DNA of 64,000 bases from Streptomyces plumbidurans (GTDB taxonomy: Bacteria > Actinomycetota > Actinomycetes > Streptomycetales > Streptomycetaceae). How positions within the stretch are numbered: position 1 is the first letter of the stretch; each line of letters opens with the position of its first letter. This document shows, piece by piece, positions 2,421-6,700 of the stretch. The stretch is from assembly GCF_019857225.1 (NCBI RefSeq), contig NZ_JAFJSY010000038.1, positions 1 through 64,000 on the forward strand, in the 5' to 3' direction. The notes beneath the pieces are model-generated. The model was given only the letters and a program-made list of their open reading frames with translations, did not search any database and was not told the origin of the DNA. A program made the translations under genes and the position numbers.

Positions 2421-2831
2421 ATGGTCACGGTTCGCTACATCGTCGACGACGTCGACGCCGCCATCGCCTTCTACTGCGGGCAGCTGGGCTTCCGTGAACT
2501 CATGCATCCGGCGCCCGCGTTCGCCATGGTCGTCCGGGACGAGCTGCGGCTCGCGCTGAGCAGGCCCGGGGGCGGACCCGGAGGCGGCGCGGTGCTGCCC
2601 GACGGCACGCTGCCCCGGCCCGGCGGCTGGAACCGGATCTCGCTGCAGGTCCCCGACCTCGACGCGGACGTCCGCCGGCTGCGGCAGGCGGGCGTGCCCC
2701 TGCGCAGCGAACCGGTCACCGGGGTCGGCGGCCGGCAGGTGATCGTGGACGATCCGTCCGGCAACCCCGTCGAGCTGTTCGAGCCGCTGCTGCCCGAGGC
2801 CCGCGAGGAGGCGTCAGGCGGCGGTGCGTGA
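2421..2831 (+). CDS. VOC (glyoxalase/dioxygenase superfamily) protein
   Basis: 136 residues with the vicinal oxygen chelate pattern: VRYIVDDVDAAIAFYCGQLGF at the N-terminus, a central ISLQVPDLDADV strand and VDDPSGNPVELFEPL at the C-terminus. Members bind a divalent metal and act on diverse substrates (glyoxalase, extradiol dioxygenase, drug-binding). Only part of the usual metal set (the C-terminal Glu of VELFE) is obvious, so catalysis is uncertain. The start ATG follows GAGG. Its 3' end overlaps the convergent narI remnant by 18 bp. Confidence 0.8.
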   Translation: MVTVRYIVDDVDAAIAFYCGQLGFRELMHPAPAFAMVVRDELRLALSRPGGGPGGGAVLPDGTLPRPGGWNRISLQVPDLDADVRRLRQAGVPLRSEPVTGVGGRQVIVDDPSGNPVELFEPLLPEAREEASGGGA

Positions 2832-3455
2832 GCGCCGGTCGGTGGTGCGGGCGCGTGAGCGGTAGACGACGTAGGGGCGTGCCGGGTAGGTCAGCGGCAC
2901 GGCGAAGGCGTGCACGAGGCTGGTGTAGGGCCACAGGGCGAACAGGGCCAGGGCGAGCAGGGCGTGCAGCTGGTAGACGAGCGGCGCGTGGGCGCTGCTG
3001 ACCCTCGTCCTGCTGGCCAGGCTCACCGCCACCGCGTCGTCGGTGACGAACCCGTATCGGGTACGTCACCCGGTCGCTGCGGCTGGTCGCCCGGCGCACG
3101 GCGGGCACCCGCAGCCGCCGGTACAGCAGCAGGGCGAGACCGCAGACGGCCGCGACGCCCGCCGTGCCGCCCATGGCCAGGGCGACGCCGTGGTACTGCG
3201 CCTCGCTGATCCGCAGGTACCGGGTGGCGCCTCGGGCACCAGCAGGCCCATGACATGGCCGCCGATGACGAGGAACAGCGCGTAGTGGAAGAGCGGGCCG
3301 CCCACCTTCAGCAGCCGGGACTCGTGCAGCTGGCTGGAGCGGGTGGTGAAGCCGAAGCGGTCGTAGCGGTAGCGCCAGGCGGTGCCGCTGACCAGGACGG
3401 CCAGCGCCAGATAGGGCAGCACACCCCACAGCGCGATCCGCAGATGCGTCGTCAC
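2814..3455 (-). pseudogene. narI: narI (nitrate reductase gamma subunit) remnant, two frameshifts and an internal deletion
   Basis: NarI is the membrane cytochrome b subunit that passes quinol electrons to NarGH. The GTG at 3455 overlaps the narJ stop (GTGA). The N-terminus reads GVLPYLALAVLVSGTAWRYR and then VIGGHVMGLLVPE. Near 3230 the homology moves to another frame (YLRISEAQYHGVALAMGG, then LLLYRRLRVPAVRRATSRSD), and near 3060 it moves back (HAPLVYQLHALLALALFALW to the end). At the second break about 35 residues, one transmembrane helix in intact NarI, are missing, so this is not a simple base-calling error. The product cannot be a working subunit. Confidence 0.85.
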
Positions 3456-3967
3456 AGCCGTACTCCTTCGTCGAGGGTGGCCCGCACCGCGCGGATCACG
3501 TCGAGATAGGGGCTGCCGTGTGCGGCGAGACCGGCGGCCAGCAGCGTGAGGGCGCCGCGGTGCTCGTGCAGCACGGCACGCCCGGCGGACGGGCAGCGCG
3601 CCGCGAACTCCAGGACGGCGGGCAGATGGTCGGGTAGTTCGCCGTCGCACGGCTCCCAGCCGTACTGCCGGTAGCGGGCCTTGAGCGCGGCGAGCGAGGC
3701 GCCCCGGCGACGGGTGTCGCCGTCGGTGTAGTGGGTCAGATGCAGGGTGCGCCTGCCGCTGCGGTCGAAGGTGGCGACATACTGCGCCGCGAGGTCGAGC
3801 AGCGGGATCTCCGCGGTACGGCGGCAGAACCGCAGCAGCTCTTCGATGCCCGGGCCCGGCAGCGCACCGATCGACGCCGACACCGTGTCCCGCCGGGCCG
3901 GCCAGCTCTGGTCGGGGTAGCTCAGGAGCAGGGAAGCCGCCTGATGGACGGCTCGGTGCTGGTTCAT
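3452..3967 (-). CDS. narJ: NarJ, nitrate reductase assembly chaperone
   Basis: 171 residues, MNQHRAVHQAASLLLSYPDQ at the start, then LLDLAAQYVATFDRSGRRTL and HLTHYTDGDTRRRG, the classic NarJ/TorD-type helical chaperone signature. NarJ binds NarG and inserts the molybdenum cofactor. The ATG overlaps the stop of the narH fragment (ATGA) and its own stop overlaps the narI GTG, keeping the ancestral narHJI spacing. The frame is intact, yet its client NarG is absent from the window, narH is a stub and narI is broken, so the gene is probably non-functional in context or a recent relic. Confidence 0.85.
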   Translation of the reverse strand: MNQHRAVHQAASLLLSYPDQSWPARRDTVSASIGALPGPGIEELLRFCRRTAEIPLLDLAAQYVATFDRSGRRTLHLTHYTDGDTRRRGASLAALKARYRQYGWEPCDGELPDHLPAVLEFAARCPSAGRAVLHEHRGALTLLAAGLAAHGSPYLDVIRAVRATLDEGVRL

Positions 3968-4310
3968 CGCGGCCCTTCGGCCTTCCGTTCGGGCAACAGT
4001 CCGCTGGGCCGGCCGCTGCGTTCCAGTTGAGCAGGTTGACCCGGCCACGCAGCGCGTCCGACGCCTTGGCGGCCGCGGCCGCGGGCACCGGCGGGGCGTG
4101 GAAGGCGGCCATCGCCTCGTCCGTCCCGTACATTCCGGGACCGCCGTCGTGGTCCAGGCTGCAGCCCGGCCCATCGGCGCCGCCCGCGCCGCCGCCGGCG
4201 GCATAGGTGGTGGGAATGACGTACCGCTCCTCGTACAGCAGCTGAGCGGCGGCCAGCGCCGCCGCTCGTTCCGCTTGTCGCCGGGCTCCGCGCCGTCTCA
4301 CCGTCTCCAC
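3964..4310 (-). pseudogene. narH: narH (nitrate reductase beta subunit) C-terminal fragment with frameshift
   Basis: Only the C-terminal ~110 residues of NarH remain: YEERYVIPTTYA, then CSLDHDGGPGMYG and GRVNLLNWN. After LLNWN (near 4021) a frameshift follows and the family ending RSGRPSGLLPERK continues in another frame to a TGA at 3964-3966, overlapping narJ. The four iron-sulfur cysteine motifs and all of narG are absent; the sequence upstream is directly the ClC gene. This marks a large deletion of narG and most of narH. Confidence 0.85.
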
Positions 4311-4393: not shown

Positions 4394-6409
4394 TTATGCG
4401 GAGATTTTCTTGCCCTTTGCAATAGTTGTGCTGGGCACGCGAATCGTGCCGCGGGGGCGCAGGGTGAGGATGCGCTCGGCGTGGTGCTCCTCGTGGTGGT
4501 CGATCCGCCGCGCGGTCAGCAGGTCGCGGAGGCTGATGATGCCCTCCACTTCAGGGCGCTCGCCCCGGGTGACGACGAGCAGCCGGGTCACCTCGCGGTG
4601 GGCCATGCGGTTGGCCAGGGCCCGCAGCGTCTCGTCGGGGTGCGCGACGACGGGGGCGCAGGCCAGCTCGCCGAGCGGGGTGGCATCGGCGGGGTCGGCG
4701 TGCACCAGCGCGCCGCGGGTCACCACGCCCGCGAGGCCGCCGTCGGCGTCGAGCACGGGGTACAGGCGCTGCGCGAGCAGCCGGTCGGCATCGCCGCCGT
4801 CGTGCGCCGCCCGGAGCAGCGCGGTGATCTCGCCCGCCGGCTGGTCGGCGCGGAAGGTGACGGCGACGGGGGTCTCCAACTGCCGTACGAGATGCACCTC
4901 GAGCGGGTCGACGGAGTACTCGCGGGTCAGATGCAGCCCGCGGCGCGCCAGCTTCTCGGTCAGCACCGAGCGCTTGAGGAGGATCACCGACAGCAGATAG
5001 GCGGCGGACGCGGTGATCACCATGGGGATCATGGCGTTGATCTCGTGGGTCAGCTCCAGGCAGAAGACGATGCCGGTGAGCGGGGAGCGCATCACCCCGC
5101 CGAGGACGCCCGCGAGCGAGACCAGGGCCCAGAAACCGGGGCTGACGTGCGGGAAGACCAGGGCCTCTGCCGCGCCGAGCGCGCCGCCGACCATGAACAT
5201 CGGGGCGAGGACACCGCCGGAGGTGCCCGAGCCGAGGGACAGCCCCCAGATGAGGGTCTTCACGACGAGCACGCCGACGATCAGGCCGACGGTGGCGTGG
5301 CCGGTGAGGAGGGCGTCGATGACGTCGTAGCCGACGCCGAGCGTGCGCGGTTCGACCAGCCCGCCGACGCCGATGATCGCGCCGCCGATGGCCGGCCACC
5401 ACATCCAGTGGATACGCAGCCGGGAGAAGAGGTCCTCGGAGAAGTAGACGAGGGCGGTGGCGCCGAGCGCGAGCAGTCCGGCCGCGGCGCCGGCCACGAT
5501 GCACAGGCCGTACGCGGAGAACGCGATGTGCGCGGGCACGTGCGCGCCGCCGAAGAGCGGGTCGGTGCCGAGCAGCGGGCCGCGCACCAGGGTGGCGGTC
5601 ACGGCGGCCACGGCCACCGGGAGATAGGAACGGGGCCGCCACTCGAAGAGCAGCAGCTCGACGGCGAGCAGGATCGAGGCGAGCGGGGCGTTGAAGGTCG
5701 CGGCCATACCGGCGGCGGAACCGGCGACCAGCAGGGCCTTGCGCTCGTCGGTGGTCACCCGCAGGAACTGCGCGATCAGGGAGCCGACGGCACCGCCGGT
5801 CATGATGATCGGCCCCTCCGCGCCGAACGGCCCTCCGGTGCCGATGGATATCGCGGCCGACGCCGGCTTCAGCGCGGCCACTCGCGGCTGCACCCGGCTG
5901 CCGCCGACCAGGATCGACTCGATCGCCTCGGGCATCCCGTGCCCGCGGATCTTCTCGGAGCCGTAGCGGGCCATGAGACCGATGACGAGACCGCCCACCA
6001 CCGGCATCATTAGCAGCAGCCAGCGGTGCGCGGTGTCGGCGGGCGCGGACGAGCCGAACCCGAAGCGCCCCTGGAAGGACAGGTTGGTGATCAGCGCGAT
6101 CAACTTGAGCAGCCCGGCGGCCACCACGGCCGCGACGGCCCCGATGGGGATGGCGAGCAGGCTGATGACCACGACGCGTGGGGGGACGTGGAAGTCGCCG
6201 AGGTGGGGGATTTTTACGGGGCCCAGATGGCGGGTGGGGGATGTGGGGTGCGCGTGGCGCGCGGTGTGCGGGGTCTGCGGGGCTGACGCGGCCGGTGCGG
6301 ACGGTGCCGGGGGGTGGTCGGCGGCGAGGGCGTCGGCGGGGTCGTCGGCCGGGACGTCGGCGGGGACGGGGGCATGCGTACGGGATCTTGCGGACACAGG
6401 GGAGGACAT
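4394..6409 (-). CDS. ClC-family chloride channel/transporter with C-terminal CBS domains
   Basis: 671 residues. After a ~90-residue Pro/Ala-rich N-terminus come about ten membrane helices with the ClC selectivity motifs: GHGMPE, then GTGGPFGAEGPI (the gating glutamate is present in GAEGP) and GSGTSGGVLAP. The last ~130 residues are a pair of CBS domains (for example YPVLDADGGLAGVVTRGAL and LLVVTRGE), which bind adenine nucleotides and regulate gating. Expected role: Cl-/H+ exchange or Cl- channel in the cell membrane. The ATG at 6409 is chosen because GGAG lies 6-9 nt upstream; an earlier in-frame ATG at 6472 has no such site. The 291 bp upstream (6410-6700) show no gene. Confidence 0.9.
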   Translation of the reverse strand: MSSPVSARSRTHAPVPADVPADDPADALAADHPPAPSAPAASAPQTPHTARHAHPTSPTRHLGPVKIPHLGDFHVPPRVVVISLLAIPIGAVAAVVAAGLLKLIALITNLSFQGRFGFGSSAPADTAHRWLLLMMPVVGGLVIGLMARYGSEKIRGHGMPEAIESILVGGSRVQPRVAALKPASAAISIGTGGPFGAEGPIIMTGGAVGSLIAQFLRVTTDERKALLVAGSAAGMAATFNAPLASILLAVELLLFEWRPRSYLPVAVAAVTATLVRGPLLGTDPLFGGAHVPAHIAFSAYGLCIVAGAAAGLLALGATALVYFSEDLFSRLRIHWMWWPAIGGAIIGVGGLVEPRTLGVGYDVIDALLTGHATVGLIVGVLVVKTLIWGLSLGSGTSGGVLAPMFMVGGALGAAEALVFPHVSPGFWALVSLAGVLGGVMRSPLTGIVFCLELTHEINAMIPMVITASAAYLLSVILLKRSVLTEKLARRGLHLTREYSVDPLEVHLVRQLETPVAVTFRADQPAGEITALLRAAHDGGDADRLLAQRLYPVLDADGGLAGVVTRGALVHADPADATPLGELACAPVVAHPDETLRALANRMAHREVTRLLVVTRGERPEVEGIISLRDLLTARRIDHHEEHHAERILTLRPRGTIRVPSTTIAKGKKISA

Positions 6410-6700
6410 GATGCTCCGGAGGGTGCGGAGGCGGACAGGGCGGATCGCCGTCCCGGCTCCGGGCGGTCGCACGGGTGCCCGGAGCGGTGGGGACGGTGGA
6501 GACAGGGGACGGTGGGTGTGCGCGGGCGTCGTTGCCCGTGCGGCACGGGTGGGTGAGGTGAGGTCGGGCGCGAAGGGGGGAGCGGAATCCGGAGGCTGGG
6601 GGCGTGGGGGCGGAGTCCGGGGGCGGATCGGGACCCGCGCACAAGGGACGGACGCGCATCGTCGCGCGTCCGCCGCGGGTCGGTCAGCTGTGCAGGGGCG

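Follow-up and report, generated by a model that had tools for sequence, protein, structure and literature searches.

A recently collapsed narGHJI operon with an intact narJ in Streptomyces plumbidurans, and recurrent orphan narJ genes in the genus

The window analyzed here comprises 64,000 nucleotides at the start of contig C122 of the Streptomyces plumbidurans draft genome (8.64 Mb, 189 contigs). Near its beginning lie the remains of a respiratory nitrate reductase operon, narGHJI, whose genes read on the minus strand. Upstream of the genes, an element at 4395 to 4436 (minus strand) matches the G148 operon at 90% over 42 nt and contains TTGCAAAGGGCAAGAAA; it is likely part of the former operon promoter region. 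Its motif also precedes narG in G148 and is found at decayed loci in S. carpinensis, S. spiralis, and G193. The string TTGCAAAGG[AG]CAAGAAA (window 4406 to 4422, minus strand) is kept before all four decayed loci of the window type and before the intact G148 operon. narG starts with GTG at 4310, and about 25 codons of it are left (4237 to 4310, minus strand; 85.5% DNA identity over 69 nt to G148 narG). At 4236/4237 this stub is joined in frame to approximately codon 454 of narH, and sequence comparison and frame reading assign 3969 to 4236 (minus strand) to the last ~94 narH codons, about 454 to 547. A deletion of about 5 kb joined the narG start to the narH end. An earlier note on this DNA had considered narG and most of narH gone; most of both genes is indeed lost, but the ~25 narG codons and the upstream region remain. 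Its claim that the narH end is frameshifted was confirmed, with the frame lost downstream of the join, near 4010 to 4030. A tblastn match of NarG amino acids 6 to 54 at 4464 to 4318 was rejected as translated upstream sequence, because the frame of the G148 query ran into its own upstream region.

The narJ gene (3452 to 3967, minus strand) is intact, as recognized by its match to the TIGR00684 profile, alignment, and a structure model, and it is followed by narI in three pieces. The 5' part of narI (3058 to 3455, minus strand, by sequence alignment) has a 1-nt gap that breaks the frame ~221 nt from the start of the piece aligned from 3446. The next piece (2993 to 3056) lies on the plus strand and is inverted: by blastn, 64 nt match G077 narI at 84% (E 4e-15) and 54 nt match G148 narI at 87% (E 2e-13), both on the opposite strand. 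About 70 nt of narI are deleted beside it. The 3' end (2814 to 2993, minus strand) covers PF02665 positions 171 to 217 and is 88.6% identical to G148 DNA over 140 nt. Two frameshifts and a lost helix had been proposed for narI; the 1-nt gap is one of these lesions, but the other is the 64-nt inverted piece plus the ~70-nt deletion. At one join of the inverted piece, we found a hairpin with 7-bp outer arms (z −2.2; 7 of 200 shuffles fold equally well), a structure that would be compatible with a template switch between short inverted repeats. Inversion, deletion, and frameshift together broke narI, and narJ stayed whole. The ancestral gene overlaps persist, as had been noted: the narH stop lies over the narJ ATG, and GTGA combines the narJ stop with the narI start.

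The pieces of narI in the window are 86 to 89% identical to the functional gene. In the first of them, differences from G148 are distributed over the codon positions as 15/11/30, and this bias toward the third position implies that narI was broken recently. With intact narGHJI operons from the same clade in G148, G106, and G077, the closest ones to the window, the window locus is a recently collapsed narGHJI operon, and the description of it as a snapshot of operon decay stands. It is not a functional operon, which would have intact narG, narH, and narI together with narJ. Neither is it a narX-type fusion, a single open frame of NarG, NarJ, and NarI parts: the frame from the GTG at 4310 leaves the narH frame before narJ, and narI is broken.

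The product of narJ, which the earlier note had correctly called open, is a protein of 171 amino acids (3967 to 3452, minus strand) that scores 120.1 bits against the NCBIfam profile TIGR00684 (cutoff 59.35; E 8e-35). In the alignment it carries the signature HYTDGDTRRRG with the motif intact. Its AlphaFold model (pLDDT 93.1), made from this motif-bearing copy, has the all-helical NarJ fold and superimposes on the NarJ structures 8jzc and 8jzd with Foldseek TM scores of 0.87 and 0.83. In family, fold, and conserved residues, it is thus like the NarJ/TorD redox enzyme maturation proteins. Binding of the NarG N terminus and promotion of cofactor insertion would be its predicted chaperone role, as the role of the family.

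Elsewhere in the draft genome, a profile search found no NarG or NarH over the curated cutoff, and narI had no match outside the window locus. There is, however, a second NarJ gene, on contig C105 (76519 to 77010), with no narG, narH, or narI around it. In total, the 189-contig draft yielded two NarJ genes and no Nar enzyme. Beside the window protein, TIGR00684 was scored for three NarJ proteins: 91.2 for the C105 copy, 97.4 for that of G193, and 54.3, below the 59.35 cutoff, for the clean orphan of G009. The C105 copy may already be doing a second job in this genome.

The decayed loci with intact narJ closest to the window are those of S. carpinensis and S. spiralis (NarJ identity, 84%) and G193 (78%). 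The window and G193 have the same genomic neighborhood; S. carpinensis and S. spiralis have another, which they share with the intact operons. In the NarJ tree, these four form one clade beside operon genes (support, 98/95). All four retain the upstream motif and differing lengths of narG and narH, and the DGDTRRRG motif is kept in the window, S. carpinensis, and S. spiralis and lost in G193. A stretch of 330 nt that begins at the upstream motif, before the narG start, and extends into narG has 79.4% identity between S. carpinensis and S. spiralis and five gaps whose lengths are not multiples of three; narJ has 94.3% identity and no such gap. The functional pair G106 and G148 shows 93.5% identity over the narG 5' region and 95.2% in narJ. 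The narH stub had been tried as the neutral control, but 240 nt of it that looked strong were partly nonorthologous and 150 nt were not decisive, so the narG 5' region was used instead.

In the genus, 392 genomes were searched for NarJ and 199 of them for all four nar genes. Matches to the window NarJ were found in 174 of the 392 genomes and matches to the C105 NarJ in 171. Among the 199, NarG was over the cutoff in 65 and NarH in 67; narI matched in 72, full or near-full in 65, and none of these 65 occurred without a NarG match. narJ without an intact NarG was present in 19 of the 199 genomes, including G061 with a broken NarG and leaving aside the weak narJ matches of G069 (E ~1e-3) and G121 (E ~4e-4). 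A NarG test of 70 genomes, 27 of them over the cutoff, gave 15 more genomes beyond the 199 with an orphan narJ and no NarG over the cutoff. Among the 42 aligned orphans of the C105 type, 33 come from genomes in which the NarG test was negative; the remaining nine are from genomes with NarG at another place or outside that test. All aligned orphan narJ frames run full length, counting as full those of G101, G177, and G343, in which a stop lies inside the long match and the frame reaches the end of a shorter one. Orphan narJ is a recurrent state in Streptomyces.

narJ is not always spared. G311 retains 47 residues of it, G096, G175, and G008 have none at the locus, and G137 has none in the genome. 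Neither narG nor a clear narJ is present in 112 of 198 genomes, and any second function of NarJ must therefore be dispensable. At two loci, L173 of G175 (~6207 to 6576) and L174 of G096 (~6596 to 6179), a 5' piece of narG is joined directly to the narI end, with narH and narJ deleted; the two pieces are in different open frames, so there is no in-frame fusion. Fragments of narI also lie away from intact narI in G146 (contig C20), G022 (C44), G036 (C1:3961682), G110 (C1:9042073), and G096 (C6:8020808), and these may be additional decayed nar loci, perhaps with more losses of narJ.

Orphans of the C105 type mostly share their neighbors on one side with complete narGHJI operons of related genomes. 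The marker there is a downstream gene that, from its sequence, we take to be dnaK; it is present at 47 of 56 C105-type loci (11 of 13 operons and 36 of 43 orphans). Upstream, a gene for an XRE-type regulator accompanies 38 of 43 orphans and 3 of 13 operons, the operon count being limited by a compared stretch that mostly ends short of the regulator position. Ten C105-type orphan loci still hold scraps of narG, narH, or narI. We separated orphans with scraps from clean ones by whether nar remains were found at a tblastn E of 1e-3; some clean orphans show a few narG codons, and scraps scored as the first narG residues include some upstream sequence. Before narG in the operons stands an element, TGACCCGTACGGG ... 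GGTGCGCTCCC ... CCCCTAG, which in clean orphans sits just before narJ (e.g., L040, 8425 to 8519). A pattern from its 3' part, chosen after the sequences had been seen, was found in the 250 nt preceding narJ for 29 of the 32 clean orphans and 2 of the 10 with scraps, compared with 14 of 1,280 random 250-nt stretches of the same loci. The element looks promoter-like, and narJ has likely come to lie behind the old promoter through deletions of narG and narH. In their sites and sequences, nar operons in Streptomyces show a pattern of shrinking toward the putative promoter region plus narJ.

Eight clean orphans form one clade (97/88) with a single upstream junction in common, and their ancestor must therefore have been an orphan itself. 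In the seven of these genomes other than G229, a test for NarG was negative. In the NarJ tree as a whole, from which G201 and G050 were left out because of contig ends, orphan and operon genes are mixed. Nine label changes are needed, at least three of them forced by well-supported branches, and the number of independent operon collapses is uncertain.

Omega for NarJ was estimated with pairwise codon models. It was 0.077 in the eight-species clean-orphan clade (four pairs), 0.103 in nine other orphan pairs, 0.17 to 0.18 in the window clade (two pairs), and 0.074 in six operon pairs; for pairs from outside the eight-species clade, some of each evolutionary path may be older than the loss. An omega of 1 was rejected in every set, with 2dlnL values of 186, 473, 60, and 373 for the eight-species clade, the other orphans, the window clade, and the operons, respectively. 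The operon pairs differ slightly between the whole-gene and by-region estimates, and pairs on unresolved parts of the tree need not be true sisters. Thus, old orphan NarJ remains under purifying selection, except in the segment of residues 59 to 99. Because the window narJ is young and its motif intact, selection after the loss cannot be shown at the window locus alone; this NarJ may be selected as its relatives are, or it may simply have escaped damage so far.

The exceptional segment, which is the freed stretch in the C105 type, surrounds DGDTRRRG. When omega was estimated separately for the N-terminal, middle, and C-terminal regions, the six operon pairs gave 0.049/0.038/0.067 and the nine orphan pairs gave 0.051/0.209/0.081 (2dlnL 72.6 versus a single omega). 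The eight-species clade, in which the motif is already deleted, gave 0.030/0.068/0.077. Scored as the presence of G75, R78, and R80, the motif of the C105 type is whole in all 13 operon genes, in 8 of the 10 orphans that still have nar scraps, and in 4 of the 32 clean ones (Fisher P = 1.5e-4 for scrap-bearing versus clean orphans, with kinship ignored). In the 48 columns that are invariant in 16 operon NarJ proteins, 268 of 2,208 orphan cells differ, many of them in or near the DGDTR columns. In the C105 type, more than 40 residues do not vary at all among the 42 orphans and 13 operon genes, and nearly all of these residues lie outside 59 to 99; a set of conserved positions (40/40) was picked for conservation and is no proof in itself. 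The lesions of the motif differ between lineages. When the segment is omitted, the tree is poorly resolved and requires 15 changes, and an independent-pairs test of motif loss, with two pairs on supported branches, has no power.

In Escherichia coli, the 15 residues at the start of NarG are bound in a hydrophobic groove of NarJ that includes E119 (PMC3501500), and insertion of the cofactor is controlled by a second NarG site (PMC10609526). The counterpart of E119 in the alignment of the C105 type is E112, which is identical in 42 of 42 aligned orphans. The simplest reading of this conservation is that the peptide groove of orphan NarJ still has a partner, and the DGDTRRRG segment probably serves NarG maturation.

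The nar genes described here have the gene order and families of Nar1 to Nar3 (narGHJI) of Streptomyces coelicolor. Unlike in those systems, NarGHI is missing in the window and in the orphans, and the chaperone persists without its enzyme. For the C105 type we use the label narG1/NarJ1, and no correspondence to Nar1 to Nar3 is implied; in PMC7931247, NarJ1 is called the private chaperone of Nar1. The narX gene of the Mycobacterium tuberculosis complex is described in PMC12803068 and PMC7816997 as what a deletion left of a collapsed nar operon: part of the catalytic subunit, a NarJ domain, and NarI sequence, with no assigned function. narX is one fused open frame, whereas the window narJ is separate and unfused beside a broken narI, and clean orphans keep narJ alone. 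The genetic association of NarJ with narGHI is described as strict in PMC4464133; in contrast to the NarJ/TorD family as presented there, Streptomyces narJ is often alone and often without the signature segment. In searches of the open-access literature by title and opening lines of the abstract, we found no Streptomyces case of orphan NarJ and no report of recurrent stand-alone NarJ with loss of one segment.

Taken together, these results make it fairly likely that NarJ has a function independent of NarG that survives the collapse of the operon, a recurrent event of which the window locus is a young case. NarJ would then be kept for a job that does not need NarGHI, as the selection on it suggests. 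The earlier note had also offered the possibility that narJ is the last gene to degrade; on this view, it is a small target that by chance has not yet been hit. The youth of the window collapse, seen in the narI identities, the third-position bias, and the intact NarJ motif, would fit this, as would the loci that have lost narJ wholly or mostly, and for the window locus by itself such an explanation is possible. Across the genus, however, it is disfavored and, overall, unlikely: at ~0.7 kb, narI is not a much larger target, yet a full-length copy without narG was found in 0 of 199 genomes versus 19 of 199 for narJ, and the old, clean orphans with the common junction are under purifying selection (omega 0.077). 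That narJ is kept as the chaperone of another NarGHI enzyme in the same genome, which had also been suggested, is very improbable. Some orphans do occur in genomes with other NarG genes (G336, G101, G182, and G068), but the window's own genome has no NarG or NarH over the cutoff, and neither do 33 further orphan-narJ genomes have NarG over the cutoff, several of them in one to three contigs (NarH was searched in the first 199). An operon that is really intact and only appears broken through assembly or sequencing error is scarcely credible: the draft is in 189 contigs and the two small frameshifts are short events that could still be errors, but a ~5-kb deletion and a 64-nt inverted piece are beyond what sequencing error can make, and related decayed loci occur in separate assemblies, including the single-contig G193.

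If NarJ has a job of its own, what might it be? After the loss of NarG, the DGDTRRRG segment would have been freed and often deleted, and the conserved groove would probably bind the N-terminal peptide of another protein. It is possible, although a little short of probable, that orphan NarJ is a repurposed chaperone that sheds its NarG-specific segment each time NarGHI is lost and acts as a stand-alone peptide binder with a second client throughout the genus. Our guess for this client is another Mo-bisPGD enzyme, e.g., a formate dehydrogenase or an assimilatory nitrate reductase. A regulatory or signal-peptide-binding function in place of molybdoenzyme maturation is rather unlikely. It would agree with a cavity region that stays fixed while the freed segment varies and with the tested formate dehydrogenase not co-occurring with every orphan. 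Against it, among the best nine scored candidates per genome, NarG-less genomes hold a mean of 6.9 molybdopterin oxidoreductases with orphan narJ versus 5.6 without narJ (P = 0.003), and four or fewer are found in 0 of 19 orphan-narJ genomes versus 32 of 112 narJ-less ones (P = 0.004). This comparison ignores kinship, and the orphan genomes are larger (9.2 versus 8.3 Mb; size-adjusted t 2.2). If NarJ, the classic example of a dedicated chaperone, repeatedly outlives its enzyme under selection, as the favored reading holds, a second client is possible even for so-called private chaperones. The orphans would then amount to a mutagenesis experiment done by nature, in which the segment required for NarG is told apart from the part for the other job, a division that is testable by molybdoenzyme-assembly biochemistry.

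One particular candidate client, a formate dehydrogenase encoded 36 kb away from narJ on C105, was considered too weak and rejected. It is present in 11 of 19 orphan genomes, 32 of 112 NarG-less genomes without narJ (Fisher P = 0.017 between these two), and 26 of 67 narG-bearing genomes. The formate dehydrogenase-like enzyme at G000:C105:40135-42051 and its orthologues lie ~30 to 50 kb from orphan narJ (e.g., in G000, G009, G020, G159, and G193), which may be plain synteny. G000 also encodes, on contig C168 (L042:4219-7500), a formate dehydrogenase alpha subunit whose reading frame contains a single TGA, in ENQARVUHSSTVPGLG; it is probably a selenocysteine enzyme.
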